From assembly GCA_027012135.1 (NCBI GenBank), contig JALUZF010000084.1:1-34084 (forward strand): 34,084 nt of DNA. The letters are read 5' to 3'. Each line of letters starts with the position of its first letter. Within the stretch, counting starts at the first letter, position 1. The stretch is from Gammaproteobacteria bacterium. Its GTDB lineage: Bacteria; Pseudomonadota; Gammaproteobacteria; GRL18. Below are positions 392-32,770 of the stretch, in pieces. A program made the position numbers and the translations under genes. The notes below the pieces were generated by a model. It made no database searches. It saw only the letters and a list, made by a program, of their open reading frames with translations, and was not told where the DNA came from.

Positions 392-1636
392 TCAGGCAAC
401 ACCGACAGAACAGGCCAGCCAGGCTTCCATCAGCCGTTCCGGATTTTTCTGCAGACGGCCTTTCCATTGTCCAAGAGAGACTTTTCCGCGTATTAAACCC
501 CGGGCCACACCGATATTTTCAGTATGCCCCAGGCTGCTGATACCCACCAGTACATCGTCTTTAAACTGCAGGTTAAGATATTTATAACGCTCCCTGTCCA
601 CGATGCAGACTGAATCACCTCCGGTGACACCCATCCACTGACCAAATGAGGTGGAGATTAAGCCCAGAGTATCCAGAACATTCATATTCAGACTGCCCTG
701 ATGCTCCAGGGTATTGTCCTGCACCATATTAGTTGCAGCCACCCGGCCATGTTCCACAGCAGTGGGCTGGATGGCCTGCACAGTAAATTCACCGGTGGAA
801 AAGTCCCGTCCCTGAGCCACATCGCCGGCTGCATAAACGGCCGGATGACTGGTCTGCAGATAACCGTTAACCAGAATACCCTGATCGGTTTCAATGCCGC
901 TGTCCTGCAGATAATCAATATTGGAACGTACACCAGTGGCTGAAATCACCAGATCAGCCGACAGACTTTCTCCGGAATCCAGTACGACGGACAGAGGCTC
1001 ACCGGCTTCAATGGAGGTAACACTATGACTGGTCAGTACCCGTACGCCCCTGTCCACACACCATTGTTTAAGCATATTGCCTGCCGTATCATCCATCATA
1101 CGCGGCACCATCCGGTCACCGCGCTCAACCACAGTCAGGCTGACACCCCGCTTAACCAGCGACTCCAGAATAATACAGCCGATAAAACCGGCCCCCATCA
1201 GTACGACCGATGAACCGCTTTTTGCTCTTGCAGCAATTTCCCGGGCATCCTCCAGAGTCCAGCAGTGCCGTACGCCCTCCAGATCCACGCCCGGTATGGG
1301 CGGGTTAATCGGTATTGCGCCGGTTGCCAGCAGTAAACGGTCAAAATCAGGTGACTCACCATTATCCAGTTTAAGCTGTTTAGCTGATGCATCAATACCG
1401 CTGATACGCTGCTGTAATCGCTTGATATTCAGCTGTTCATAATAACCTTCGGTTTTGCGTAAATGAGTGCCCTGTTCAGCAATTTTTTCACTTAACAGAT
1501 AGGGAATGGCCATACGTGAATAAGGCGGCTCCGGTTCTGCACCAATAAGCGTTATGGAGGCATCCGGGGAGAGTTTACGAATAGTTTCACAGGCCACCAC
1601 ACCGGCCGGGCCTGCTCCTGCTACAATATATTGCAT
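392..1636 (-). CDS. FAD-dependent NAD(P)-disulfide-type oxidoreductase of the AOR cluster
   Basis: A 414-aa flavoprotein of the pyridine nucleotide-disulfide oxidoreductase superfamily. The N-terminus has a dinucleotide fold for FAD (VAGAGPAG), a second GxGxxG fold for NAD(P) follows near residue 155 (LMGAGFIG), and the FAD-closing motif is AAGDVA. I moved the start from an upstream codon to the ATG at 1634-1636, because the FAD fold begins there and AGGA sits 8 nt upstream. It lies between the AOR catalytic gene and the MoaD-like gene. In characterised bacterial AORs such as AorABC of Aromatoleum, a comparable flavin subunit links the iron-sulfur chain to NAD+. That role is inferred here. 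No redox-active CxxC/CxxxxC is seen, so it is not a classic disulfide reductase. Confidence 0.85.
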   Translation of the reverse strand: MQYIVAGAGPAGVVACETIRKLSPDASITLIGAEPEPPYSRMAIPYLLSEKIAEQGTHLRKTEGYYEQLNIKRLQQRISGIDASAKQLKLDNGESPDFDRLLLATGAIPINPPIPGVDLEGVRHCWTLEDAREIAARAKSGSSVVLMGAGFIGCIILESLVKRGVSLTVVERGDRMVPRMMDDTAGNMLKQWCVDRGVRVLTSHSVTSIEAGEPLSVVLDSGESLSADLVISATGVRSNIDYLQDSGIETDQGILVNGYLQTSHPAVYAAGDVAQGRDFSTGEFTVQAIQPTAVEHGRVAATNMVQDNTLEHQGSLNMNVLDTLGLISTSFGQWMGVTGGDSVCIVDRERYKYLNLQFKDDVLVGISSLGHTENIGVARGLIRGKVSLGQWKGRLQKNPERLMEAWLACSVGVA

Positions 1637-1680
1637 TGATTGATTCCTGGTGAATGAGTGTTTAGTAGCCCTCACCCTGT

Positions 1681-1701
1681 CCCTCTCCCGAAGGGAGAGG
1701 G
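1681..1701. repeat. short REP-like hairpin CCCTCTCCC-gaa-GGGAGAGGG
   Basis: A perfect 9-bp inverted repeat with a 3-nt loop, preceded by CCCTCACCCTGT. Similar CCTCACCCTxxCCCTCTCCC strings are common dispersed intergenic repeats in gammaproteobacteria. It lies in the 199-bp gap between the AOR catalytic gene and the FAD-oxidoreductase gene and could act as an mRNA stabiliser or processing point within the operon. Confidence 0.75.
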
Positions 1702-1737
1702 AATAAAAGCATGGGAGTTACTTGAAATATACTCTGA

Positions 1738-1826
1738 GTATCCAGGTGTGATAGTGCCTTTCTAAAGTTTCGGCAGCATGGATGGATTCACGGCATCTTT
1801 AGAAAGGTGCTATCACACCCGGATAC
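1738..1826. repeat. 89-bp palindromic element between AOR genes
   Basis: Two 30-nt arms, 1738-1767 and 1797-1826, are inverted copies with three mismatches. They enclose a 29-nt loop containing GCATGGATGGATTCACGGC. The element fills the gap downstream of the AOR catalytic gene, next to the REP-like hairpin at 1681-1701. It carries no gene. It resembles the dispersed palindromic intergenic elements of gammaproteobacteria and differs in sequence from the three larger palindromes elsewhere in this window. Confidence 0.8.
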
Positions 1827-1835
1827 GGACTTGAT

Positions 1836-3692
1836 TTATAGCCCCAGACGATTCAGTGTCTCATCGGTAGGTACACCGTCTTCATTCCAGCCGCGCTTTT
1901 CATAATATTCAGGCAGCATTTTTTCCACCTCTGAATAACGGCCTTTGGCGGGGCCGGTTCGTGCTGCACCCTCTTCACTCTTCAGTCGTTCCGGAAGGGT
2001 ATCATCGGCTTTGGTTACACCGGCCTGCATATTGTACTGACGTTCCATATTCCAGACCCGTTCACCCAGTTCCACCAGTTTTTCCGGTGTCCATTCACCT
2101 TCGCAGGCAGCATCCAGCTGAGGAGCAATATTGGTCATATCCCAGGCAAAGGTGGTAAACAGACATAAACCGCTGGAATCTACAGCAGCCGTTGCATCCT
2201 GGAATGCCTTAACCAGTTCCGGTTTGCCTTCAGTCACCAGCGGATCGGTCTTAACCGGGACACCCAGCACTTCTGAGGCAACGGTATAACCACGCACATG
2301 GCAGGCACCGCGGTTGGAAGTGGCATAGTTCAGACCGATACCCTGTATACCACGAGGATCATAAGCCGGGAATTCCTGACCCTTAACGGTCATAGACAAC
2401 TCGGGATGCCCGTATTTCTCACATAAACGTTTTGAACCCAGTGCCAGTTCCTTACCAAAACCTTCACCGGTAGCCACCCATTCTGCGGCTTTGGCCAGTG
2501 CTTCGGCAGAACCAAAGTTAAAGGCAACACCACCGGTCTGCTCATCGGTAATAACGCCCATTTCATATAGTTCCATGGCAGCCGCAACGGTGGCACCAAA
2601 GGTAATGGGATCATAACCATCTTCATTACACAGGAAGTTGGCATAGGTCAGGGCGTCCAGATCATTGACTTCAGTATCTGCACCCAGAGCCCAGGCTGCT
2701 TCATATTCCAGTCCCCCGGAATTACCCCAGTATTTAGCCTTGTTTTCCACCGTAAAGTGGCCTTTATCAATGGTGGAAATACGACCACAGGCAATAGTAC
2801 AGCCAAAACAGGCCGCATTCGTCGTCAGATTAGGTTTGCCATCACTCTTGCGCGGTTCGTGCATGGCTTCCCCGGAAATATCATGGGCACCATCAAACTG
2901 TACTTCCTGCATGTTTCTGGCAGGTAATGCCCCAATTTCATTAATCACATTCATCAGCACCTGGGTACCATAGGCGGGCAGCCCCTGACCGGTAACCGGA
3001 TTTTCTGCCAGAATAACCTTGTTCTCATTAACCACCTGCATAAAACGGGCAGGATCCTTAATATTGCCCACACCCAGGGTGCCACGTACAGCAACGGCCT
3101 TCAGATTTTTGGACGCCATTACCGTACCCACACCGGAACGTCCTGCAGCACGATGCAGATCATTGATAATACCGGCATACAGACAGCCGGATTCTGCAGA
3201 GCGCCCTACCGCTGAGATACGCAGCAGGGGATCCTGGTACCTGTTATGCAGCCATTCATCGGTATACCAGACGGAGGTACCCCAGATTTCGGAAGCATCC
3301 ACCAGTTCAGCATGATCGTCTTCCACATAAAGATAGACCGGTGAAGGTGATTTACCTTCAAAAATAATCATATCCCAGCCGGCATGCTTCATTTCAGCAC
3401 CGATAAAGCCACCGGAATTAGAACAGGCAATGCAATTGGTCAACGGGCTTTTGGTGACAACGGAATAGCGTCCGCCGGTGGCAGCCATAGTACCGGTTAA
3501 AGGCCCGGTGGCCATAATCATTTTATTATCCGGCCCCAGGGGATCACATTTAGGGTCAGTTTCTTCTACCAGGTATTTGCTGGCCAGACCACGCTGACCC
3601 AGGTATTGCTGAGCCCATTCCATATTCAGAGGTTCTGCATTGACAGACCCTTCTGTCAGGTTTACACGAAGGATTTTTCCAGTCCAGGACAT
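1836..3692 (-). CDS. aor: aldehyde ferredoxin oxidoreductase, tungsten-pterin catalytic subunit
   Basis: A 618-aa protein of the AOR family, which oxidises aldehydes to carboxylic acids at a tungsten bis-pyranopterin site. Its length matches Pyrococcus AOR. The N-terminal domain begins MSWTGKILRVNLTEG, as is typical. The cysteines that bind the [4Fe-4S] cluster beside the pterin are visible as C295-x2-C298-x3-C302 plus C510 (GLCLF). The start has a good ribosome site (GGAG, 7 nt away). It lies downstream of the ferredoxin-type subunit and upstream of the FAD and MoaD-like genes, the same kinds of partners found in bacterial NAD-linked AORs. Tungsten use is inferred from the family. It should be cytoplasmic: there is no signal peptide. 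Confidence 0.95.
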   Translation of the reverse strand: MSWTGKILRVNLTEGSVNAEPLNMEWAQQYLGQRGLASKYLVEETDPKCDPLGPDNKMIMATGPLTGTMAATGGRYSVVTKSPLTNCIACSNSGGFIGAEMKHAGWDMIIFEGKSPSPVYLYVEDDHAELVDASEIWGTSVWYTDEWLHNRYQDPLLRISAVGRSAESGCLYAGIINDLHRAAGRSGVGTVMASKNLKAVAVRGTLGVGNIKDPARFMQVVNENKVILAENPVTGQGLPAYGTQVLMNVINEIGALPARNMQEVQFDGAHDISGEAMHEPRKSDGKPNLTTNAACFGCTIACGRISTIDKGHFTVENKAKYWGNSGGLEYEAAWALGADTEVNDLDALTYANFLCNEDGYDPITFGATVAAAMELYEMGVITDEQTGGVAFNFGSAEALAKAAEWVATGEGFGKELALGSKRLCEKYGHPELSMTVKGQEFPAYDPRGIQGIGLNYATSNRGACHVRGYTVASEVLGVPVKTDPLVTEGKPELVKAFQDATAAVDSSGLCLFTTFAWDMTNIAPQLDAACEGEWTPEKLVELGERVWNMERQYNMQAGVTKADDTLPERLKSEEGAARTGPAKGRYSEVEKMLPEYYEKRGWNEDGVPTDETLNRLGL

Positions 3693-10925: not shown

Positions 10926-13019
10926 ATGGAATTAATGAAACTTTATCCTTTTTCAATCGTCAAGCAGGGCAAAGAGTTTTACTCAGCCATGGTGCGCCTT
11001 AGCCTGGGGCTGATCCTGTCTTTATATATCTGGTTAGGTACAGTCCGGGGTGAGTTTGATATCTCTTATACCACCTTTGTCAATTTTGCCGCTTTTTATT
11101 TTAGCGTAACCATTTTACTGACACTGGATCTTTTTCGTAACCCCGAATCACATTTTAGACGCTATTTAACCCTGTTTTTTGATATTTCCTGCACATCCTA
11201 TGCTGCATTCCTGACCGGGGGGGCAGGCAGTGAATTTATTCTTATTTATATCTGGCTCTATATTGCTTACGGCACCCGTTACGGACTGAGTTATTTATTA
11301 ACCGCCGTCATCTTTGTTATGCTGGAATACAATATCGTCCTGTACCTGAATAATGACTGGATAATAAACCGTTTAAGCTCATGTGCACAGATTTTTGTAC
11401 TGGTGCTTATGCCGCTGTACCTGTACTCCATGATCAAACAGCTGCATAAAGCCAAAAGAGCCGCTGAACAGGCAACCCGAGCCAAAAGCAATTTTCTGGC
11501 TACCATGAGCCATGAAATTCGCACCCCTATGAGCGGTATTATCGGCACAGCTCACCTTTTGCAGAACACCCAACTAAGCAAGGAACAGCAGGAATATACC
11601 CGGGCTCTGCTGGATGCTTCCAAGTCTCTGCATGCCCTGATTGATGATATTCTGGACTTTTCCAAGATTGAAGCCAATAAGCTGGAACTGACCCGGTCCG
11701 GCTTTGATCTGCACCAGACCATCAACGAAGTACTGGCGGTACTTTCTCCCAATGCTGAATACCATAACCTGGACTTTATTGTTTATATTGATCCTGAGTT
11801 GCCTGCCTACGTTATTGGAGACAGTCAACGCATCCGCCAGATTTTATTCAATCTGGTCGGCAATGCCATTAAATTTACGGATCAGGGCGAGGTGTCTCTT
11901 AATGTTACCCGAATAGCTGATCAGTCCAGTGACCAACAGGTCAGCCTGCGTTTTGATATTATCGATACCGGCATTGGTATCAGCAAAGAATTACAGCAGA
12001 AAATTTTTGATAGTTTTACCCAGGCGGATTCTACTTCCCCCCATCGTTTTGGCGGTACTGGTCTGGGTACCACCATTTCCAAGCAGCTGGTGGAATTTAT
12101 GGGAGGTGAAATCGGCCTGAGCAGTGAACCCGGCAAAGGCAGCCATTTCTGGTTCACCCTGACGCTGCCCGTAAAAGAAGCAGGCAACATCCAGGAACGT
12201 TACAGACAACGCCTGAAGGGTAAAAACGCCGATGTACTGGTGGTCAATGATTCTAACTACGAAGTGATCCAGCGTTATTGTAATTACTTTGGTCTGAATA
12301 TTACCCGTTATCATTCTGAGCAGGAACTGCTCAACGGCATGGAGCAGTCCCGAGCACAATACCGTAACTGTGACCTGGTTATTTTATCCGACGATGCCAG
12401 CCACAAACTGCCTATTAAACTGGCCAGCCAGATTTCCCGTATTGAATGCGTTTCCGGTGCCAGGGCCAAAAAAATATTCCTGGGCTATCTGGGCCAGCGT
12501 GCCCGGGCACAGGAGCTGGGTAATGATTATTTTGATGCCTATGTGACCAAGCCCATTAATTTTGAACGTTTGGGTGATACTTTAATTGAACTGCTCTCAC
12601 CTGAAACATCACCCATCAGCAAGGACAAATTAAACAAGCCCATGGAAACCTCCCTGAAAATATTAATTGCCGAAGATGAAGATATTAATGCCATGGTACT
12701 CAGCAGCTTCCTGCAGGATGCCGGCCATGAAGTCATCCGGGTTGAAGATGGCGCACAGGCCGTAGATGCCCTGAATGAAAGCGCTTTTGACCTGGTTTTT
12801 ATGGATATGCGTATGCCGGAAATGAACGGTCTGGAAGCCACCCGGCTCTGGCGTCAGCAGGAACCGGAAGGTCAGCATATTCCCATTATTGCCCTGACAG
12901 CCAATGCCACCGTGGATGATCGCAAGGCCTGCATGGAAATCGGCATGGACGATTTTGTGACCAAGCCCATCAGTCCGGAACAATTGCTGGATATTATCCG
13001 TAAATATTACCAGCCATAA
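10926..13019 (+). CDS. RpfC-like hybrid sensor kinase with one false and one true receiver
   Basis: A 697-aa inner-membrane hybrid histidine kinase. About five hydrophobic helices fill residues 20-170, with no large periplasmic loop, resembling the input region of RpfC. The HisKA box MSHEIRTP has its His at 196 and is followed by an ATPase domain (N, G1 and G2 motifs DTGIGIS and GGTGLG). Residues about 430-560 look like a receiver (VLVVNDS..., YVTKPIN), but the phospho-acceptor position is Ser (DLVILSDD). A complete receiver follows with Asp627 (VFMDMRMPEMNG) and KPIS. No HPt domain is present, unlike RpfC. The double-receiver gene 99 bp downstream is the likely partner. The signal sensed is unknown. 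Confidence 0.88.
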   Translation: MELMKLYPFSIVKQGKEFYSAMVRLSLGLILSLYIWLGTVRGEFDISYTTFVNFAAFYFSVTILLTLDLFRNPESHFRRYLTLFFDISCTSYAAFLTGGAGSEFILIYIWLYIAYGTRYGLSYLLTAVIFVMLEYNIVLYLNNDWIINRLSSCAQIFVLVLMPLYLYSMIKQLHKAKRAAEQATRAKSNFLATMSHEIRTPMSGIIGTAHLLQNTQLSKEQQEYTRALLDASKSLHALIDDILDFSKIEANKLELTRSGFDLHQTINEVLAVLSPNAEYHNLDFIVYIDPELPAYVIGDSQRIRQILFNLVGNAIKFTDQGEVSLNVTRIADQSSDQQVSLRFDIIDTGIGISKELQQKIFDSFTQADSTSPHRFGGTGLGTTISKQLVEFMGGEIGLSSEPGKGSHFWFTLTLPVKEAGNIQERYRQRLKGKNADVLVVNDSNYEVIQRYCNYFGLNITRYHSEQELLNGMEQSRAQYRNCDLVILSDDASHKLPIKLASQISRIECVSGARAKKIFLGYLGQRARAQELGNDYFDAYVTKPINFERLGDTLIELLSPETSPISKDKLNKPMETSLKILIAEDEDINAMVLSSFLQDAGHEVIRVEDGAQAVDALNESAFDLVFMDMRMPEMNGLEATRLWRQQEPEGQHIPIIALTANATVDDRKACMEIGMDDFVTKPISPEQLLDIIRKYYQP

Positions 13020-13118
13020 TCCCATTTTCTCAGCACCAACGTTTATAGAGATCATCACTGGATTTTCTGTCAGCTTATTCTACACTCAGAATATTAAACC
13101 AACAGACAGACACCCTCA

Positions 13119-13925
13119 ATGGATACTAATTTAGTCACTATTTCCGATCTGGTTATTCTGGTCGTCGAGCCTTCCGCCATGCAGGCTAAAATAATTCAGC
13201 GCAACCTGCAGGATGCCCAGGTGCATACTGTACACATTGCCCATAATGGTACTGAAGCCCAGGCCATTATGGCCAGAGGCGCACCCGATCTGGTGGTCAG
13301 CGCACTGTACCTCCCGGATATTACCGGCACCGATCTGGTAGTGTCCATGCGCAATGATCCCCGTCTTGAACAGGTACCCTTTATGCTCATTTCCAGTGAA
13401 ACCTCGTTTGAGCAACTGGATCCGGTTCGCCAGGCCGGTGTCGTTGCCATCCTGCCCAAGCCCTTTGAATTTAAGGATTTAAAACGCGCTCTGTATAATA
13501 CTCTGGACTTTATTAACCCCTCTGCCAGTGAAATGCATGAAATTGATTTTAATGAGTTTCACGTTCTGGTGGTGGATGACAGTGCCATGGCCCGCAAACA
13601 CATTCGCAGAGTACTGGGTAAAATGGGTATTACCTCTTTTCAGGAAGCCGTTAACGGACATGATGCCATACCTGTTATTGAAAACAACTTTTTTGATTTA
13701 ATTGTCACCGATTACAATATGCCGGAAATGGATGGGGAAGAACTGACCCGATACGTCAGGGAACAAAGTTCACAAAGCTCTATTCCTATTTTAATGGTGA
13801 CCAGTGAAAACGACCACAACCGCCTGGCGGCAGTACAGCAGTCCGGTGTTTCAGGAATTTGCAACAAGCCGTTCGAGCCGGATACAGTAAAAACCTATCT
13901 GCAGAAAATTATGGCGGATTTGTGA
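13119..13925 (+). CDS. tandem-receiver response regulator, first receiver lacks the acceptor Asp
   Basis: A 268-aa cytoplasmic protein made of two CheY-like domains and no output domain. In the first, the acceptor position is Ala62 (DLVVSALYLP) and the acidic pair is reduced to Glu17-Pro18, so it should not be phosphorylated. The conserved Lys (LPKPFE) remains. The second is complete: acidic pair VVDDS, acceptor Asp198 (IVTDYNMPEMDG), Thr in MVTSE and Lys in NKPFE. It lies 99 bp after the hybrid kinase on the same strand, so the two probably form a pathway, ending in protein-protein contact rather than DNA binding. Confidence 0.85.
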   Translation: MDTNLVTISDLVILVVEPSAMQAKIIQRNLQDAQVHTVHIAHNGTEAQAIMARGAPDLVVSALYLPDITGTDLVVSMRNDPRLEQVPFMLISSETSFEQLDPVRQAGVVAILPKPFEFKDLKRALYNTLDFINPSASEMHEIDFNEFHVLVVDDSAMARKHIRRVLGKMGITSFQEAVNGHDAIPVIENNFFDLIVTDYNMPEMDGEELTRYVREQSSQSSIPILMVTSENDHNRLAAVQQSGVSGICNKPFEPDTVKTYLQKIMADL

Positions 13926-21407: not shown

Positions 21408-22202
21408 CTACAGGCTAATGGACCTGATTTCGGGTATTGCTTTTTCAGGCCCCACAATCAGCAGCCCTGCTTTTTTAACCGGCAGGGCAACCACCATTAA
21501 ACCCTCTTCTTTAGCCTGATAACGCCCTTCTTTTGCCACTTTCATACGCACCACCGGATTACGAAAGAACACTTTTTCTGTCACCGCATATTGAAACACA
21601 ATCTGATTACCGCTTCTGACTGCGTAAGCAGTTGCCGGAGCACCTCCAATACTGGTTTCCCAACTGGCCAGCACTCTCGCATCCGGCCAGCTGGCCGGGG
21701 CATTAACTTCTACTTTACTATGCCGGTTAAATTGTCCGGAAGTTCCTGCACTCTGGTATTCTGCCAGTACCTGGGCCACCATTGGAACCGTATGCTGGTG
21801 ATCTGAAGGTTTTAACGGCGGCAATAATACCAGCATCAGTACCATGGCAACCACCCAGCCACTTAGAGTTATTATGGGCATTATCTGAAAACGTGACTTA
21901 AAACCATTAAGCAATGCCCGCCAACTATCCTGCCTAGTTCTTTTTCCCGACATTGGGGTCGGCTGTTCCGGGCTCCTGTCCAGTTTCTGCTGCAAATGGG
22001 CAGGTAAGCGGGCGTGTGTAAGATGATTCAATCGGCGGCTGAGCTGTTGCTGACGTTCGACATCCATCCGGCAGGCCTGACAGCCCGCAAGATGCACCTC
22101 TACAATGTATTTTTCTGTTTCACTCAGGCTATCATCCACATAACCGGCCAGTAAATCCTGAATTTCCAGATGCAGGACTTTTAAATTGCTATTATCTCTC
22201 AT
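21408..22202 (-). CDS. membrane anti-sigma factor with zinc-finger domain
   Basis: A 264-aa protein. The N-terminal cytoplasmic domain carries the anti-sigma zinc motif HLAGCQACRMDV (H-x3-C-x2-C) near residue 38. One membrane helix follows near residue 110-130 (IITLSGWVVAMVLMLVLL), then a periplasmic C-terminal domain. It starts inside the sigma gene's stop (4-bp ATGA overlap), so the pair is coupled. It should hold the ECF sigma factor inactive until a periplasmic signal acts. Its stop converges with tatC, 13 bp away. Confidence 0.85.
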   Translation of the reverse strand: MRDNSNLKVLHLEIQDLLAGYVDDSLSETEKYIVEVHLAGCQACRMDVERQQQLSRRLNHLTHARLPAHLQQKLDRSPEQPTPMSGKRTRQDSWRALLNGFKSRFQIMPIITLSGWVVAMVLMLVLLPPLKPSDHQHTVPMVAQVLAEYQSAGTSGQFNRHSKVEVNAPASWPDARVLASWETSIGGAPATAYAVRSGNQIVFQYAVTEKVFFRNPVVRMKVAKEGRYQAKEEGLMVVALPVKKAGLLIVGPEKAIPEIRSISL

Positions 22203-22792
22203 TTATAAATCCCCTTTGTACGCTTATCGGTCTGTGGAAAGCTCCCCTGTCTGTCTGATCGGTTTAAAATATTGCTTAACAAACGCCGTCCACGTGACAA
22301 ACGACTCATAATAGTTCCCTCAGGAACATCCAGAATCCGGGATAACTCCTGATAACTCAGTCCTTCAATATCCCGTAATAAAATAACCTTGCCAAAATCC
22401 TCCGGTAAAGACTGTATGGCCTTTATCAACTGCTGATCAGTCTGTTGCTGCAGCAACTGCTCAAAGGGACCCTGATAAGAACTGTGCTGTTCCTGCAGAA
22501 ATATTTCCTCAGTTGAAATAAGCGGAGCAATCTGCTGTCTTCTGGCCTCTTTTCTTATATCATCAGCAATCACATGATCCAGTATTTTTAATAACCAGGC
22601 ATAGACCGCCTGAGGGTCAGCCAGATCATCAAAATCCTGCCAGGCACGCATAAATGTTTCCTGCACCCAGTCCTCTGCCCTGGTTGAAGTTCGGGTTTGT
22701 CTCAGCGCCACATTATACAGCCGCTCTCGCCACGGAGCAGTCACCTGCTGGAAGTTTTGCTGTCGTTGCTTTTTCCGCCTGAAAAAATTCAT
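22199..22792 (-). CDS. ECF-type RNA polymerase sigma factor
   Basis: A 197-aa sigma-70 family protein with regions 2 and 4 only. Region 2 includes RAEDWVQETFMRAWQDF, and region 4 has the helix-turn-helix YQELSRILDVPEGTIMSRLS, joined by a Gln-rich linker. The RLSRGRRLL ending is typical. It is co-transcribed with its anti-sigma factor and lies divergent from the cytochrome/propeller gene. Both genes have the same bipartite motif upstream, which suggests autoregulation. Confidence 0.92.
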   Translation of the reverse strand: MNFFRRKKQRQQNFQQVTAPWRERLYNVALRQTRTSTRAEDWVQETFMRAWQDFDDLADPQAVYAWLLKILDHVIADDIRKEARRQQIAPLISTEEIFLQEQHSSYQGPFEQLLQQQTDQQLIKAIQSLPEDFGKVILLRDIEGLSYQELSRILDVPEGTIMSRLSRGRRLLSNILNRSDRQGSFPQTDKRTKGIYK

Positions 22793-23005: not shown

Positions 23006-24253
23006 ATGAAAAAAAATTCTTTTAAGCTGGTTTTTGCCAGTGCCGCTTTACTGACACTAAGTCACACCCTTTGGGCCGGTAATATTACCCAGGGGAAAAC
23101 CAAAGCAGCAGCCTGTGCAGGCTGTCATGGAATCAATGGTATAGGATTAAGTGAAGAATTTCCCAATCTGGCCGGACAGAAACCAGCTTATATTATTAAA
23201 CAGTTAACCGCTTTTAAAAACGGCAGCCGCAAAGATCCCACCATGAATGCCATGGCAGCGACTTTATCCACTGAAGATATGGCTGATCTAGCAGCTTACT
23301 TTTCCAGCCTGAAGACAAGCACTACTCAGGCTTCTGTTACAGATAAGCCCAAAACAGACAAAGCCAGTCATCAGGAGTTTCCTGAAAACGTCTATATTTC
23401 CATGAAAAAAAGTGCGACCATTGAAACCTTCCCTCAGCAACAGAGCTGGACCGGCGGTCCTAATATGCTTTATACCGCCATTACTCCCAATAAAAAAATG
23501 CTCTTATCAACCAGTCCTTCCAGCAATACCGTCTATGTATTTAATACCCAAAACGGTAAGCAGTTAGCTATTATTAAAACCGGCAAAGCCCCCAAAGGCG
23601 TTAAAGTATCACCCGATGGCAAACAGGCCTATATCAGTAATCAGGGTTCTGCCGATATCACAGTCATTAACCTGAGGTCTCTACAGGTCAGCAATACCAT
23701 AAAAGTTAAAAAAGGCCCTCATAATGTCCGCTTTACCAAAGATGGTAAACTGGCTTATGTGACATTACAGGGTGGTGACGGCCTGGGTATTATTGATACT
23801 CAGAAGCAAAAACTGATCCGTGTGATTCCAGTTCCGGGTATTACCGGCCCCCACAATATGGATTTATCTGCTGATGAAAAAACGGCTTTTGTCCGGGACT
23901 TTGTCCACCATGTCGCCGTTGTCGATTTAACGACAGGAAAGGTAAACAAAATTATTACAGTCGGCAATGGTCACGGTGGAATCGATGTATTTCCTAATGG
24001 TCAATACGCGGCTACTGCCGCCATTGGAGATGATTATATCAGCATCATTGACACTCGGACTCTGGAATCCAGAGACATAATAATCGGTACGGCCTCACAT
24101 GGTATACGGGTCAGTAAAAACAGTCAGTGGCTTTATGTTACCTTACCTAAGGAAAATGCAATTGCAGTGATTAATACCAGAACAATGGCAGTAGAAGCCA
24201 GAATTGCCAGTGGCAAATTCCCATTCTGGATTGCGGTTCCTGGAAACCCTTAA
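23006..24253 (+). CDS. exported cytochrome c fused to a YVTN-type beta-propeller
   Basis: A 415-aa periplasmic protein. The signal peptide ends near Ala24 (HTLWAG). A class I cytochrome c domain follows with CAGCH (C37, C40, H41) and likely axial Met80 (DPTMNAMA). After a short linker, residues about 140-415 contain about six to seven repeats of a YVTN-like propeller (SPDGKQAYISNQGSADITVIN). Several blades begin with a His at the same place (GPHNVRF, GPHNMDL, GHGGIDVF, SHGIRVS), which could form a metal or cofactor site. The overall layout recalls cytochrome cd1 proteins, but I cannot show d1 binding. It is divergent from the ECF sigma gene and shares its promoter motif, so it is a likely target. 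Confidence 0.85.
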   Translation: MKKNSFKLVFASAALLTLSHTLWAGNITQGKTKAAACAGCHGINGIGLSEEFPNLAGQKPAYIIKQLTAFKNGSRKDPTMNAMAATLSTEDMADLAAYFSSLKTSTTQASVTDKPKTDKASHQEFPENVYISMKKSATIETFPQQQSWTGGPNMLYTAITPNKKMLLSTSPSSNTVYVFNTQNGKQLAIIKTGKAPKGVKVSPDGKQAYISNQGSADITVINLRSLQVSNTIKVKKGPHNVRFTKDGKLAYVTLQGGDGLGIIDTQKQKLIRVIPVPGITGPHNMDLSADEKTAFVRDFVHHVAVVDLTTGKVNKIITVGNGHGGIDVFPNGQYAATAAIGDDYISIIDTRTLESRDIIIGTASHGIRVSKNSQWLYVTLPKENAIAVINTRTMAVEARIASGKFPFWIAVPGNP

Positions 24254-24254
24254 T

Positions 24255-26039
24255 TTATTTCTTTTTCCTGATAACCCGGAACGCCACCTTTTCAAAGGAG
24301 TCGGTGGCTTCCAGAATTTTTTCAATCCTGATCTGGTTTAATTTCCGGTTATGCCAGATTTTTAGTGTGCTGCCGATATCATAAATTCCGGGCGGGATAA
24401 TTAAATGCAGCCTGTCTTTTTTGTCCCGGGTATTATTTTCTGAAATCAGAAAAGCCCGATGAAACTGACCACCAACCCCTACCCCTTCTTCTGCTTTAAC
24501 AGCAACGGCTCTTGAATGTACAGCAATCAGATAAATACCAATGGCCATGCCTTTATGAGGATTAATGCGCAGCCATTTGACACTGGCCAGACAATAAGCT
24601 TTTTCTACTGCCAGCCGGTAGGCCACCAGCATTCCCACGGCAATAGGCATTTCTATGTCATTACGGCCAACCAGTAGCATACCGTGTTTGCTTTCATTAC
24701 GCTGCTTCCAGACCTGTTCCTGTAAATTCTCACCAAGCTGCTGCTGAGACTCAAAGATATTGGCCTGGACTACTGATGAAGCGTAAATTTTATCCCATTC
24801 ATCACCCACAATATCCACTTCCGACATAAACGGATTAATGGACTGTAACTCTCCCATTGGATTTTTTTTGTTCAGCAGGCGCTCTTCTTCCAGAAGATTA
24901 ATCAAATTAATTTCAGAGTCATCTTTCTCCTCTGCCTGAACCGCCGCCAGATTCTCTTCCTGCCACTGATGAATTTCCAGTTGCGGCTCAAAAGGCTTAC
25001 GATTATTAATAAAATGATGACAGGCCGTCAGCCCGGAAACCAGCCGTATCTCATTGCCGGAGAGCACTCGCTCCTCAGCCCTGTCTTTATACACTTTCAG
25101 CTCATCTCTGATCCTCTGCAGCATTTCATAGTGAATACGGGACTGGTAATTAAGCGCCTTCTGCTGTTTATCCTGATCAATCCGCTGCAGATATTCATCA
25201 ATAAATATGCGCAACGGTTCCAGATCAACAATGCGGCCTTCATAATCCTGCCCGGGTGGTACTTTATCCTTATCCGGATCAAAACAATGGGGAGGAAAAT
25301 CTGATAATAAATCCACTACATGGTGATGTTCCGGGTTTTGTCCTGCAAAACCTTTTAAATGACTGTGCTCTATCCATTTATCCAGCAGGAGATGTATTTT
25401 TCTGGATTCCAGACGCATCAGCCGGTAGGGATCCAGCAACTTCAGGATAACGATTTTAAGATAAGTATCTTTAATTGAGCGCTGGGAATGCATTACTTCA
25501 TTCTGGGCACCGATACGTTCTGTCAGCAGATAAAGCTGGTTCAGCTCCTGCCAGATACAGGGAGGTTCAGAAAGATAGAATTCATAGCGTTCCACCAGCA
25601 GACGGCTAAGGTATTGCAGAGCCATATACAGTGCTTCTGGTAATATATTGCCCAGATACTGGTTCAGATAATCTTTATTATTGGCAATGTCATTAACAAC
25701 AATCTGGTAGGCCACTGAACTTTCCAGCAGAAGATGCTGCATAATATCAATTAAGGACTGGTATTCTTCCGCCACAGGGAAAGAGACCAGTTCAGTCTTT
25801 CTGTACAGGTACTCCAGTTCCTTATGAATTTCCTTATCCATAATTTTCATCAGGGTGACCCGTAAATCCGGCTCGCATTGTACCCGGTTTAATTCGGTCA
25901 GAGTTTTCAACAAACCAGCTCTGTCTGACGGATCACGTTTATTCAACCAGTTTTGAATAGACAATACTTCCGGCAAAATACCCTGATAGTTATCATCTAA
26001 AATAACCTGTTCGGGTATTCTCAGCTTAGGCTTAAACAT
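24255..26039 (-). CDS. uncharacterised 594-aa cytoplasmic protein
   Basis: A large, mostly helical acidic protein without signal peptide or membrane helix. Residues about 1-370 look all-helical. The last ~170 residues are beta-rich (GMLLVGRNDIEMPIAVGMLV, SVKWLRINPHKGMAIGIYLI, LIIPPGIYDIG). That region faintly recalls PilZ-like beta-barrels, but I see no canonical RxxxR...DxSxxG c-di-GMP motif, so I assign no function. I believe similar proteins exist in other gammaproteobacteria. Its stop is one base from the stop of the convergent cytochrome-propeller gene. The 182-bp divergent gap to the receptor relic is AT-rich with only weak TATACT-like boxes. Confidence 0.75.
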   Translation of the reverse strand: MFKPKLRIPEQVILDDNYQGILPEVLSIQNWLNKRDPSDRAGLLKTLTELNRVQCEPDLRVTLMKIMDKEIHKELEYLYRKTELVSFPVAEEYQSLIDIMQHLLLESSVAYQIVVNDIANNKDYLNQYLGNILPEALYMALQYLSRLLVERYEFYLSEPPCIWQELNQLYLLTERIGAQNEVMHSQRSIKDTYLKIVILKLLDPYRLMRLESRKIHLLLDKWIEHSHLKGFAGQNPEHHHVVDLLSDFPPHCFDPDKDKVPPGQDYEGRIVDLEPLRIFIDEYLQRIDQDKQQKALNYQSRIHYEMLQRIRDELKVYKDRAEERVLSGNEIRLVSGLTACHHFINNRKPFEPQLEIHQWQEENLAAVQAEEKDDSEINLINLLEEERLLNKKNPMGELQSINPFMSEVDIVGDEWDKIYASSVVQANIFESQQQLGENLQEQVWKQRNESKHGMLLVGRNDIEMPIAVGMLVAYRLAVEKAYCLASVKWLRINPHKGMAIGIYLIAVHSRAVAVKAEEGVGVGGQFHRAFLISENNTRDKKDRLHLIIPPGIYDIGSTLKIWHNRKLNQIRIEKILEATDSFEKVAFRVIRKKK

Positions 26040-26221
26040 AATTCTGCGTCTCTTTTTTAAACACTCATTCCCATTTTAATTATTATAGCGCAGATTGATA
26101 TTTTGTATGTATTCAGTCCACAGACTTTTAATTTACAGCTATATCTAAAATCCAGCTGAACTATACATTAGTAAAATCTAAACTATACTTTGCCTGTCCA
26201 GTTGAAATAAATACTCCTATT

Positions 26222-26785
26222 ATGAATAAATTAATTACTCCCCTTCTTTTTTCTGCTTTTATTTTAATACTACTGATGAATTTAGCACAGGCTACAGATG
26301 AATCGTCTGAGTTACACATAGATGAAGAAGCCCTTTTGTTTAGTGATATACCTTCTGTTTTCAGTGCTTCAAAATACGAACAGCAAGTTACTGAAGCACC
26401 TGCCCGGATCAGCATTACTACCAGCGATGAAATTCAACGCCATGGTCACCGTCTGAATGAAAACATCTATGATTCCGTAGTAGCTGATAGAGATTTTCAA
26501 ATTGACCTGGATCTGATTGAACGGGTCGCTTTAATCTGGAATCCACTTGAAACAGCCAGTATTAAACTGCTCTATGGCAGTGCATTTCCTACGAACTGTA
26601 TTTTCACAATGGCAATGAGACCCAAAAGCCCTCCGGGACTGGATCCTGAAACCATTGATAGTTCTGAACTGATTATGAAGCAGCAATTAAACTACGATCT
26701 GATTATTATTGCCTGGGTTTATTAGTTTGAAATAAACAAAATTGAACAGAAAGGGTTAAACATTCCGCATTATATTTACGTATAA
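26222..26785 (+). pseudogene. decayed TonB-dependent outer-membrane receptor
   Basis: The 167-codon frame (to 26725) begins with a signal peptide and a plug-domain start (SASKYEQQVTEAPARISITT). It then jumps to the end of the plug (IYDSVVADRDF, DLDLIERV) and straight into barrel sequence (LIWNPLETASIKLLYGSAF, GLDPETIDSSELIMKQQLNY). The usual RAPNxYELYY segment is found in another frame (YELYFHNGNETQKP, about 26589-26630), showing a pair of small frame changes. After the TAG at 26723-26725 the same frame goes on with receptor-like FEINKIEQKG. So about three quarters of a ~650-aa receptor is gone. Lost ligand unknown. It lies before the giant sensor protein on the same strand. The rest of the gap up to 26966 holds only an 18-codon frame at 26889-26945. 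Confidence 0.8.
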
Positions 26786-26966
26786 CTTTTAATGATTAGA
26801 AGACTCAAAGGGTAAAAGGTGAAAAAGCTGACAACATCCCCATACAATCTCTAAATCAACAGATTTCCTGAAAACAGAGACACGTATGAAACTTAGTTTA
26901 AATAAAAAATTAATTAATGATGCCTTTAAAGTTTATCAATAATGCCTGGTAAAATAGAGAAAAATT

Positions 26967-29900
26967 ATGAAATGGTTTAATAATTTAGGTCTGATAACAA
27001 AATTTAACCTGCTATCCATTAGCTTAGTACTGTTTACTGCTATAGCCCTCACCAGCTATGAAATTAAAAGTGAACAGAATAGCCACTCTGAAGCATTGCT
27101 TGAACATGGTACTGAACTAACAGAAGTTATTTCCAGATTAAGCCAATACGCCCTGTTTACCGAAGATCGTAAGACTCTAAAAACCATACTTACTAACATA
27201 ACCGATGAAGAAACATCTTATCTTGCTTTTTTAAGGCCTGACGCTACAGTAATAACTGACCATGGCAGTCTCCCGTCCACTGCTCTTCCCCCGACTAAAA
27301 ACATTCTGACAAAAATCGGTACTGACCCGGCAAATAATAAAACATTCCATGATACAAGCCCCGATGGACAGTATATTCGTATTATTGCTCCAGTCATATC
27401 CAGTCATGACATAGAATTTGACAGCGACTTAACAGAGCAGGACTCAAAATCTCCAGAACAGGAACTTCTGGGTTATATACAGGTAATTTTTAACACCCAT
27501 AAAATGCAGTTACAGTCTATGCAAGCCATTGCAAATGCGGTTTTTATTGCTCTTGTAATTGTCATTATCGCAATTATTGTCACTTTTCTGATGACCCGAA
27601 AAATTACCCAGCCCATTAATCAGCTGATACTGGCCACCCAGAAAATTGCCGATGGCAATTTTAATGAACCCGTTGAAATTACCCAAAGTGGTGAATTAAG
27701 TCATTTGACAAATAATTTTAATCAGATGATCAGCAAACTGAACACCTCACGAAAAGTACTTGAAAATTATCAACAGACCCTGGAACAAAAAGTTGAACAA
27801 CGGACTCATGAATTAGTAGCAGCCAAAGAGGCAGCCGAAGCCGCCAGTCGTGCCAAGAGTGAATTTCTGGCAACCATGAGTCATGAAATACGTACCCCTA
27901 TGAATGGCGTTATGGGTATGACTGAATTACTTATGGACAGTGAACTGGACATCCGGACACATCGCCTGGCAGAAACGGCACACCGTTCAGCAGAAAGTCT
28001 ATTGCATATTATTAATGATATTCTGGATTTTTCAAAAATTGAAGCCGGTAAACTGGACATTCATAATGAAGATTTTAATTTTAGAACCTTATTAGAAGAT
28101 ACCATACAAATTGTTTCCGGACAGGCGTATCAAAAAGGTCTGACCCTGATATCCAGTTTACCGCCAGAATTACCTCAATGGCTTAACGGCGATTCACTTA
28201 GACTAAGCCAGGTTCTTATTAATTTACTGAGTAATGCCGTTAAGTTTACTGAACGAGGTGAAGTAAAACTCTGGGTTCGTTGCAAAGAACTGAACAATGA
28301 ACAGCTGTTAATTTCCTTTGAGGTTTCAGATACCGGACCTGGAATTTCTGCCTCTGCCCAGGAAAGAATCTTCCATGCATTTAGCCAGGAAGATGGTACT
28401 ACCACCCGTCGATACGGGGGTACAGGCCTTGGACTTGCCATAGCACAACAACTGGTTCAGCTTATGGGCGGAGAGTTAAAACTGGAATCCAGTCTGGGAG
28501 AAGGCTCCTGTTTTAGCTTTCAGGTTGTAATGAAAAAATCGCTTACTCAAACAATCTCCAACCCCAGGGTTGCACAATTATATGGCATTCATCTTCTGAT
28601 TGTAGATGATCAAATTGTTAACCGCGATATTTTATATAAACAGACGATGTCATGGGGCATCAGGACATCCAATGCCAGCTCTGGTTTTGATGCTCTGAAA
28701 CAATTGCGTCAGGCTGCCCTGGAAAATGATCCTTTTCAGATTGCCATTCTGGACTGGCATATGCCCGGCATGGATGGCGTGGAGTTAATTAAGAATATTA
28801 AAATAAGTAATGACATCCCTGCTCTGAAAATTATTATGCTCAGCTCAATGGAAATTAATTTACAGTCACTGAATGATGAAAATATTAATATTGACTGTTA
28901 CCTGCAAAAACCGGTACGCCAGCAGGAACTTCTGAACTGCTTATTACAAACCCTGGAAGAAAAAAACACAGCTTTACCTGAGAAGAAGACAAAACAGGAC
29001 AGGTTTGAAGCTCAAATTTTACTGGCAGAAGATAATCTGGTGAATCAGGAAGTGGCTATTGGCATGTTAATGAGCCTGGGCTGTCAGGTTGAAGTGGCTG
29101 AAAATGGTCTGGAAGCATTACAGGCGGTCAAAATGCAGAACTACGATTTAATATTAATGGACTGCCATATGCCGGAAATGGATGGTTTTGAAGCCACCAG
29201 AAAAATTCGCCAACTGGAACAGGTTTTAAAGCAGCCATTCACCCCCATAATTGCACTGACAGCTGATGTTCAAAAAGGTATTGAAGAACAATGCCTGGAA
29301 ACGGGTATGAATGATTATGTCAGCAAACCCTTTAGCAAAATTCAACTGCAGGAATTACTACAGCAATGGCTTCCCCATAAAGCCGTTCAGGTAACTGAGA
29401 CTATCCAGCAATCTCAAACGCAGTTACCATTAGAACACTCTAAAATTATAGATGAATCAGTATTAAATGAGTTAAAAATACTCAGTAATGAAGCGGGTCG
29501 TGATGTTCTGAGCACTTCTATTAATTATTATATGCAGAGTGCTGACCATAAAATGGCTGAACTGCACCAGGCTCTGGCCAGCCAGGATGCACAAAATCTC
29601 CGCAAAATCGCCCATAGTATGAAATCATCCAGTGCTAATCTGGGCGCAATTGAACTGAAAGAACTCTTTTTCAAACTGGAAACAGACGCCAGAAATAATG
29701 CTCTGGAAAATACCCCTGAGACACTTGAAAAAATTGCTCATTCGCTTAATCTGTTTATTAGTTTTCTTAAAAACTATATACAGCAATATAAGTCCAGCGA
29801 AATCAAACCTCTGCCACAGCTAAAGAGTTCCGATGCCAGACAAATACTACTGATAGATGATGAAGCCAACTTTCGTTATATTACCAGAGAGGTTCTGGAA

Positions 29901-31898
29901 AGTGCCGGTTATAATGTTGTTGAAGCACATAGTGGTCTACATGCACTTGAGCTGATCAGTGAGGTGCAACCTGATCTGATCTTGCTGGACGCCATTATGG
30001 AGGACATAAACGGTTTTGAAACCTGCCGTCGTCTGTTAGCAACCCAAAAGCTCAACAATGTACCTATTTTAATGGTTACCGGCCTGGATGATATGGAATC
30101 TGTCAACCAGGCTTATGATGCCGGAGCTATCGACTTTATCAGTAAGCCGGTAAACTACCCTGTTTTACTGCACAGACTGCGCTTTCAGTTACGCACCAGT
30201 GAAAATATAAAAAAGCTGCATGAAAGCCAGGAACAACTGGCCAGCGCCCAACGTGTTGCCAACCTGGGTTACTGGCGCTGGGATGCCACCAGTGATCACT
30301 TTACAGCCTCTGATAATTTTGCAGAAATGCTGGGCGTCAACCCGGAAAACTGCTGTTCAAAACTGAATGATTATCTGCAATTTGTTCACCCTGAAGATCG
30401 TGAATATCTTAGAAGTATTATTACCGGGCTTGATTTTGGTGCGCCACTTAAGCCGGTTGATTATCGCCTGGTACTGGCAGACAAACCGGCTATCATCGTC
30501 CATCAGGAAGTTGATATTTCCCCGGATTCAGCACATATCTTTTTAGGGACTGTACAGGATATAACCCAGAAAAATGCCACGGAGCAACATATCCGTCGGC
30601 TGGCCTATAATGATGAGTTAACCGGTCTGGCCAGTCGTACCTATTTTTATAAACACACCGAAGATATTATTAAAACAGCACAAAGAAGGCAGGAGCGTTT
30701 TGCTCTGCTGTTTCTTGACCTGGATGGTTTTAAAAAAATTAATGATACGATGGGCCATGACACCGGTGATCAACTACTAAAGGTTATTGCTTCAAGACTT
30801 GAAAATATAGTACGTCAATCAGATTTTGTAGCCCGACTTAGTGGTGATGAATTCTGTATTCTGGTTGACAATGTTAATGAACAATACGGTGCAGCTGAAA
30901 CTGCTGAGCGATGCCTGAATGAGCTGCATAAGCCTATCCAGTTAAAAGGCAACACGATTCAACCTGGCTGCAGTATTGGTATTGCCCATTATCCCGAAGA
31001 TGGTGAAGATCTGCAAAGCCTGCTCAAGGCGGCTGACAGTGCTATGTATATGGCCAAACAGGAAGGTAAACATCGCTATGTATTCCACCGACCTGAACTC
31101 ACCCATCAGACAAAACAACGTTTACAGATAGAGGAAGAGCTGCGTCTGGCATTAGAACGTAATCAGATGGTACTTTATTATCAGCCTCAGGTTGATAGCT
31201 CCAGCGGCAAGATAGTGGCTCTTGAAGCTCTAATACGCTGGAAACATCCTGAAAAAGGTCTTATTCTACCAGAGGATTTTTTACATATTATTGAACGCAT
31301 TGGTTTAATCAAACAGTTTGAACACTGGGTTTTATTTAATGCCTGTCAACAAATGGCTCTGTGGCTGGAACAGGGACTCACTGAAGTTAGAGTTACTGTA
31401 AATATTTCTCCCTTACACTTTTGCGATCCTGAGCTGCCAAATACAGTGGCCACTATTTTAGAAAAAACACAATTAAACTCAGCCAGTCTGGAACTTGAAA
31501 TCACTGAAAATATTGTGCAGACAACAGGCAATAATTACCACATGTTTAAGCAGCTAAAACAGCTTGGCGTTAAAATTGCCATTGATGATTTCGGTACAGG
31601 TTATTCCTCCCTAGCATCAATACAGTCTCTGCCCATTAATTATCTAAAAATTGATCGTCTCTTTATTGGCAATATCAACAAAGATCAGGACTCCAGCATT
31701 TTAGTTAAATCAATGATTGAAATGGCTCACGCCCTAAACCTTATTGTAGTAGCAGAAGGTGTTGAAGTTAATGAACAGATGGAGACTTTACAACGGCTAA
31801 ACTGCGATATTATTCAGGGTCATCTTATTAGCAAGCCCGTGCCTGAAAATAAGGTACCCGCTCTGCTGCAAAACCGCTTTTCTGGTACCCGGGTCTAA
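26967..31898 (+). CDS. single-chain phosphorelay/c-di-GMP protein: sensor kinase-REC-REC-HPt-REC-PAS-GGDEF-EAL
   Basis: A 1643-aa inner-membrane protein. Membrane helices near residues 10-28 and 190-210 bracket a periplasmic sensor resembling CHASE8. HAMP follows ([10 protein letters not shown]), then HisKA with His306 ([11 protein letters not shown]) and an ATPase domain ([15 protein letters not shown]). Receiver 1 has Asp596 ([11 protein letters not shown]), receiver 2 Asp732 ([11 protein letters not shown]), and the HPt has His883 ([12 protein letters not shown]). Receiver 3 has Asp1008 ([11 protein letters not shown]). After a PAS domain (~1090-1210) comes GGDEF, reading SGDEF at 1292-1296 with an RxxD inhibitory site (RQSD) five residues earlier. 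The EAL domain (EALIRW from 1420, [15 protein letters not shown]) looks complete. All phosphotransfer residues are present, so it looks like a BarA-type kinase fused to its own c-di-GMP response regulator. The ATG follows GAGAAAAATT. Confidence 0.92.
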
Positions 31899-31912
31899 AC
31901 CAGCTGTCTGCC

Positions 31913-32182
31913 TCAATAACGTATTATAAAGCCCTGATTACAGCCTGTTTCAATGGGTTGAGTGCTAATATTGTCCACCTGACTATACTTCGAACCGGTT
32001 TTTAAAATATCCAGGAACTGTTCAAGTGTGTGCTGTTCATCTACCGTAACACAGACTTCTACATCGCCATCAGGAAGGTTTTTTACATAACCGGAATAAC
32101 CCGCCTTTGCCGCCATCATCTGTATACTTGCACGGTAAAAAACACCCTGCACCCTGCCACTGATAATGCATTGATAATTCAT
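31913..32182 (-). CDS. acyP: acylphosphatase
   Basis: An 89-aa acylphosphatase. The phosphate-binding loop with catalytic Arg is GRVQGVFYRAS, and the catalytic Asn is in GYVKNLPDGDVEV. It hydrolyses small acyl phosphates such as carbamoyl phosphate. Length is normal. It converges with the giant sensor gene (14 bp between stops) and lies 24 bp after the hemerythrin gene on the same strand. Confidence 0.93.
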   Translation of the reverse strand: MNYQCIISGRVQGVFYRASIQMMAAKAGYSGYVKNLPDGDVEVCVTVDEQHTLEQFLDILKTGSKYSQVDNISTQPIETGCNQGFIIRY

Positions 32183-32206: not shown

Positions 32207-32605
32207 CTAAATAATTTCACCCAGAAAAGCACCCAGTTTCATATCGGTACTGAGAATATGCCCGGTCAGCCAGTGCTCAAGAAAACTGATGTCTTCATCC
32301 GAGAGTTTGCCCGCTGCCCGAAATCTTTTCTGTAAGTCTCTGACACTGTCAATCAGGGCTTCATGATCCGCCTTGTGTTCTGCATAGTCTCCATAATTAT
32401 ATTTAATCATCAGACGTTCTTCATGCCTGAAATGCCAGACCGTACAACTGATCAGTTCTTCCAGAACCGCTTCGACATAAATCAGACTGTCATTTTCTGC
32501 AACCGCATGGCTGAGTATATTAAACAGGTCAATCAGACGACGATGATCTTCATCAATCTCATCCACCTGAACACTTAATGATTCATCCCAGATTAAATCT
32601 TTCAT
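32207..32605 (-). CDS. bacteriohemerythrin
   Basis: A 132-aa single-domain hemerythrin, a di-iron oxygen-binding protein. The ligands are visible in order: DEDHRRL, CTVWHFRHEERLM, HKADHEAL and HWLTGHILSTD. I use the ATG at 32603-32605, with AGGAG 8 nt upstream; the GTG two codons earlier is too close to that site. Possible roles are oxygen storage, delivery or sensing. The 165-bp upstream gap is AT-rich with a perfect GGATATATCC palindrome at 32643-32652 but no firm promoter call. Confidence 0.9.
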   Translation of the reverse strand: MKDLIWDESLSVQVDEIDEDHRRLIDLFNILSHAVAENDSLIYVEAVLEELISCTVWHFRHEERLMIKYNYGDYAEHKADHEALIDSVRDLQKRFRAAGKLSDEDISFLEHWLTGHILSTDMKLGAFLGEII

Positions 32606-32770
32606 AGACACTGCTCCTGAATAATTGGTTTAACAGATTATTGGATATATCCTATCACTAATAGCCATTATTGTTGATAAATCTATACTTTTATATTTCA
32701 GCTCTTCTAAAATCATAAATAGAGAATGGTAAAGCAGAATACTTATCGGAATATTTTTTAAATTTCCAGC

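Follow-up and report, generated by a model that had tools for sequence, protein, structure and literature searches.

In hybrid histidine kinases of the BarA and GacS types, the HPt domain normally acts in trans. In Pseudomonas putida, the REC-PAS-GGDEF-EAL regulator CfcR has cyclase activity and is controlled by kinase phosphorylation (PMC4951495), and a survey of Alphaproteobacteria linked HisKA, HATPase and Hpt domains to EAL proteins (PMC9756655). Stimuli directly shown to interact with the histidine kinase sensors of c-di-GMP networks are exceptionally rare (2022 review, PMC8846402). Here we analyze a gammaproteobacterial contig of 34,084 nucleotides, referred to as the window, that encodes a kinase, a phosphorelay and a GGDEF-EAL module on one polypeptide (Table 1). 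We consider it probable (approximately 0.62) that this protein is a self-contained inner membrane phosphorelay setting c-di-GMP, the window copy being chimeric and cut off from the partners of its relatives.

Table 1. Features of the fused gene and its immediate surroundings; positions refer to the window
Feature	Position	Strand	Basis or remark
Segment absent in two congeners, relic + fused gene, ~5.9 kb	25995..31948		limits approximate
TonB-dependent receptor relic, internal deletions	26222..26725	+	profile match
Fused phosphorelay/c-di-GMP protein	26967..31898	+	1643 aa, ATG to stop
Periplasmic sCache_4 sensor, aa 42-188	27090..27530	+	Pfam; predicted fold
HAMP, aa 208-259	27588..27743	+	Pfam
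HisKA, aa 296-361	27852..28049	+	Pfam
HATPase_c, aa 408-520	28188..28526	+	Pfam
REC1, ~aa 541-660, Asp596	28587..28946	+	residue check, alignment of relatives
REC2, ~aa 682-800, Asp732	29010..29366	+	residue check, alignment of relatives
HPt (Pfam Hpt), aa 854-933, His883 (AHSMKS)	29526..29765	+	Pfam
REC3, aa 960-1071, Asp1008	29844..30179	+	Pfam
PAS_3, aa 1113-1179	30303..30503	+	Pfam
GGDEF, aa 1213-1369	30603..31073	+	Pfam
I-site RQSD, aa 1283-1286	30813-30824	+	RxxD motif
SGDEF active-site motif, aa 1292-1296	30840-30854	+	sequence
EAL, aa 1390-1624	31134..31838	+	Pfam

The gene is a single uninterrupted frame. It is also free of stops and frameshifts around residues 950-980, where a preliminary description of this DNA had placed a possible boundary between two genes. 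Pfam matches with strong E-values give the order sCache_4-HAMP-HisKA-HATPase-REC-REC-HPt-REC-PAS-GGDEF-EAL, in agreement with the kinase, two receivers, HPt, third receiver and PAS-GGDEF-EAL already proposed, and add the periplasmic sCache_4 domain, which had been overlooked. This domain is flanked by two membrane helices (~aa 7-33 and ~182-215), and a structural model of the sensor (pLDDT 74) has a Cache/PAS-like domain between the helices, with WalK as the nearest structure. The five residues named earlier as relay sites (His306, Asp596, Asp732, His883 and Asp1008) are all exactly in place, such that each domain of a full His-Asp-His-Asp relay has its phosphorylation residue; the phospho-acceptor His306 lies in the motif SHEIRTP and is encoded at 27882-27884. 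The active-site and metal residues of both the GGDEF and EAL domains are present and conserved, including all EAL catalytic residues that we checked. The cyclase motif is SGDEF rather than GGDEF, and the RxxD I-site begins nine residues ahead of it, which is the correct spacing.

Across 34 relatives, H306, D732, H883, D1008, RxxD and GDEF are invariant, as are the metal-binding acids, Thr and Lys of REC2 and REC3 and the HPt Lys; the EAL catalytic residues are nearly so. REC1 differs: D596 is replaced by Asn in three copies from the same genus (L033, L011 and L040), and the conserved Lys and acidic residues are also lost in places among the relatives. The relay is therefore likely H306-D732-H883-D1008 with REC1 as an accessory; because close relatives have lost its Asp, REC1 is probably dispensable for the relay and serves as a side receiver or in regulation. 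REC1 looks intact in the window copy, where it might instead be the working intermediate. A periplasmic signal perceived by sCache_4 would pass through HAMP to the kinase. Based on the standard His-Asp-His-Asp order and the invariance of these residues, we infer that His306, once autophosphorylated, would transfer phosphate to REC2 (Asp732), from there to the HPt domain (His883) and finally to REC3 (Asp1008). REC3 would in turn shift the balance between the SGDEF cyclase, product-limited at its I-site, and the EAL phosphodiesterase.

An SGDEF motif does not imply inactivity, given that the SGDEF enzymes MbaA, which has been reported to make c-di-GMP (PMC8079147), and CdgB (PMC9683572) are both described as likely or shown to be dual-function. 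The RxxD inhibitory site and the EAL motifs, both noted in the preliminary description, are present and conserved among relatives. Together with the reported c-di-GMP synthesis by SGDEF enzymes, this makes it plausible that the fused protein controls both synthesis and breakdown. Many GGDEF-EAL proteins show one activity, however, and this one may act chiefly as a phosphodiesterase or as a receptor.

The preliminary description held that the fusion would route every phosphate to its own output, but the phosphate could also leave the chain. Nothing prevents the HPt domain from serving other receivers, and the window itself encodes a further hybrid histidine kinase and then a two-receiver protein lacking a recognised output domain (10926-13925). 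One may imagine a branched hub in which the main targets of the kinase-HPt portion are other response regulators, phosphorylated in trans, while REC3 is only one receiver among several or serves as a phosphate sink. We judge this unlikely: the phosphorylation residues of REC3 are invariant, and in the members examined REC3 either shares a chain with the HPt domain or is encoded next to it.

The architecture is not unique to the window. We scanned species genomes as well as the window's own family and recovered 25 other fused copies, 21 of which have the complete HisKA-HATPase-REC-REC-HPt-REC-PAS-GGDEF-EAL order, the remaining four being more distant and without a detected PAS domain. The window protein has the same domain order and a core homologous over its full length. 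Hosts include Methylococcaceae, two isolate genomes of Nitrosomonas (Nm36 and Nm71), tubeworm symbionts and uncultured Gammaproteobacteria; in plasmid records, none of the relatives spanned 80% of the protein. A second fused copy is encoded on contig C197 of the window's own genome (~56% identical to the window copy over the core), and a core tree places the window copy beside copies of the same family with support of 100/100. By domain order and core homology, we assign the protein to a family that is widespread but has received little description. The original proposal was to count as refuted if the architecture belonged to a widespread family already described and of known function; the architecture indeed proved widespread, but we found neither a description of it nor a function for it in the open-licence PMC papers searched. 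A broken, partly inverted family copy in a genome of the same genus (G019; L122, ~977-3198), with REC3-PAS-GGDEF and EAL pieces in different orientations, reflects either decay or misassembly.

The assembly is in 325 contigs and has 4.59% contamination, so two genes might have been joined by an error of assembly or sequencing. We find this highly improbable, and reject it at the level of the family, because both Nitrosomonas isolates, further assemblies and the paralog, which lies on a different contig, have the same order, uninterrupted in the isolates and the paralog. The contig is also native, its flanks being 90-95% identical to those of congeners.

In six Desulfobulbaceae/deltaproteobacterial loci (L066, L067, L069, L072, L076 and L098), the same domains are divided between adjacent genes, a kinase ending in HPt followed by REC3-PAS-GGDEF-EAL, with an overlap of 8 bp in four of the six. 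The break falls exactly between HPt and REC3, so that REC3 is the first domain of the separate downstream gene. The earlier proposal of a hybrid kinase fused to a regulator that is elsewhere encoded separately thus finds its counterpart, and the fused protein is, judged by its predicted domains, the same machine as the two-gene hybrid kinase/REC-PAS-GGDEF-EAL pair, joined at the HPt-REC3 border. In a tree built from 1195 columns of the shared core, the fused and split states require two changes; this tree is unrooted and therefore does not polarise fusion against fission. Thiorhodococcus (L096) has a one-receiver version. Two further candidates for split genes were rejected: L059 (8706-9286, in a record of the Lamellibrachia barhami symbiont), where an N-gap breaks the gene and the flanks are duplicated, an assembly scar, and L060, which has a frameshift without a gap.

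Where the upstream sequence is long enough, most relatives carry a gene for a TonB-dependent receptor followed by a gene for a periplasmic protein, either DUF4154 (YfiR/HmsC-like) or ABC_sub_bind, near or abutting the kinase gene, and an HDOD gene often lies downstream. The sensor matches the partner without exception, CHASE8 with DUF4154 at 15 loci and sCache_4-like with ABC_sub_bind at eight, although some of the sCache_4-like sensors are only weakly assigned (CHASE8 gives weak partial matches to L047 and L051, and L083 has no Pfam match). Fisher's test (p 2e-6) overstates this correspondence, which involves three changes of partner type on the tree and only two well-supported independent pairs; we therefore treat it as suggestive. 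Relatives with a PAS-type N-terminus, some on short contigs, have neither partner in view. The Nitrosomonas copies have a core nested with Methylococcaceae, yet carry CHASE8 and DUF4154; sensor and partner therefore appear to have been exchanged together. In the window's own genome, the five DUF4154 genes and the five CHASE8 genes pair off one to one, the members of each pair being no more than a few hundred bases apart (contigs C197, C142, C137, C244 and C262). The C197 locus (L119, 3467-11032) is an intact cassette in which the ORFs for the TonB receptor, DUF4154 and the fused kinase overlap; this kinase has an adjacent DUF4154 and a CHASE8 sensor, as in a YfiBNR-like input, and has Asn in place of the REC1 phospho-Asp.

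In these relatives the TonB receptor and the dedicated periplasmic protein, YfiR-like or ABC_sub_bind, would probably deliver the stimulus to the sensor. We tentatively suggest, at somewhat less than even odds, that the cassette is a previously undescribed outer-membrane-to-c-di-GMP signalling system composed of a TonB receptor, a YfiR-like or ABC_sub_bind messenger and a one-protein phosphorelay, in which input modules (sensor plus partner genes) are exchanged whole around a fixed core and of which the window copy would be a naturally chimeric member that has lost its partners. The cassettes suggest that control by YfiR-type periplasmic proteins can extend from diguanylate cyclases to histidine kinases, and they supply candidate partners for histidine kinase sensors in c-di-GMP networks. 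Together, the split, fused, receiver-inactivated and partner-exchanged forms provide a natural series for asking why a whole phosphorelay is joined to its output.

The core of the window copy best matches copies of its own family (1703 bits versus 1254 to Methylococcaceae), whereas its sensor best matches the Methylococcaceae type (60 bits versus 10 to same-family copies); by these matches, it is a chimera of an own-family core and a Methylococcaceae-type sensor. It is the only sCache_4 protein in its genome. Upstream, the TonB receptor relic keeps segments 10-80 and 416-494 of the 668-position receptor profile, and its best match is a Methylobacter receptor (L044, E 2e-22) of the ABC_sub_bind-associated class. 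Of the ABC_sub_bind-type input, the window copy has the sCache_4-like sensor but no adjacent ABC_sub_bind gene; between 26726 and 26966 no remains of DUF4154 or ABC_sub_bind were found. The relic and the fused gene together constitute a presence/absence segment in a native contig, either gained here or lost in congeners: in G020 and G023 the same flanks lie close together without it, and the flanking 594-aa gene is 95% and 90% identical, respectively. No convincing flanking repeats or target duplication were found at the segment, and a sigma-70 promoter scan was not above shuffles (21 versus 17.1 +/- 3.8).

Immediately downstream of the fused gene and convergent with it is an 89-aa ORF that looks acylphosphatase-like (31913-32182, minus strand), adjoined by a bacteriohemerythrin (32207-32611). 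Elsewhere in the window, a cytochrome c fused to a YVTN-type beta-propeller (23006-24253), with partial matches to the L-NosZ and hydrazine-synthase beta families, adjoins an ECF sigma/anti-sigma pair (21408-22792).

That the TonB receptor is only a relic, that no ABC_sub_bind gene stands alongside (the whole genome has a single weak partial match) and that the segment is missing from two congeners could mean that the fused gene is a decaying orphan, a non-functional remnant that lost its input partners and is on its way out. We think this improbable, since 1643 codons are still open and every signature residue is kept despite the decayed neighbour. If the window copy is instead a working phosphorelay whose partners were lost or shed, it would sense directly, depend on a partner encoded elsewhere or hold a fixed set-point.

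Among structures, the protein matches 6qrj ('Hybrid kinase'), which we take to be ShkA of Caulobacter. ShkA has tandem receivers after the kinase, the first of which is not part of the relay, a likeness to the fused protein that we regard as a lead only; ShkA lacks the HPt-REC-GGDEF-EAL tail. The preliminary description called the protein BarA-type, and BarA/GacS-type kinases do share the order sCache_4-HAMP-HisKA-HATPase-REC-HPt and provide the best NCBIfam match (residues 16-921). The specific label is not supported, however: the BarA model (NF008318) scores 568.8 bits against a cut-off of 890, there are two intermediate receivers, the chain also includes the response regulator, and the sensor in most of the family is a YfiN-type CHASE8. 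The ABC_sub_bind subgroup resembles NspS-MbaA and LuxP-LuxQ, in which a solute-binding protein accompanies a membrane SGDEF-EAL enzyme (MbaA) or a hybrid kinase (LuxQ), but the NspS/LuxP binding-protein family differs from ABC_sub_bind and the window copy has no binding protein beside it. MbaA furthermore has no kinase, no receivers and an EVL motif (PMC8079147). Most relatives resemble YfiBNR/HmsCDE in pairing DUF4154 with a CHASE8 sensor, as YfiR is paired with YfiN; unlike in those systems, their sensor drives a histidine kinase relay instead of GGDEF directly and the outer membrane gene encodes a TonB receptor. The window copy has neither an adjacent DUF4154 nor CHASE8. CfcA/CfcR consists of separate genes, CfcR being described as an orphan regulator and CfcA being a different multisensor kinase; as a hybrid kinase controlling a REC-PAS-GGDEF-EAL regulator, it is a split analogue of the fused protein.
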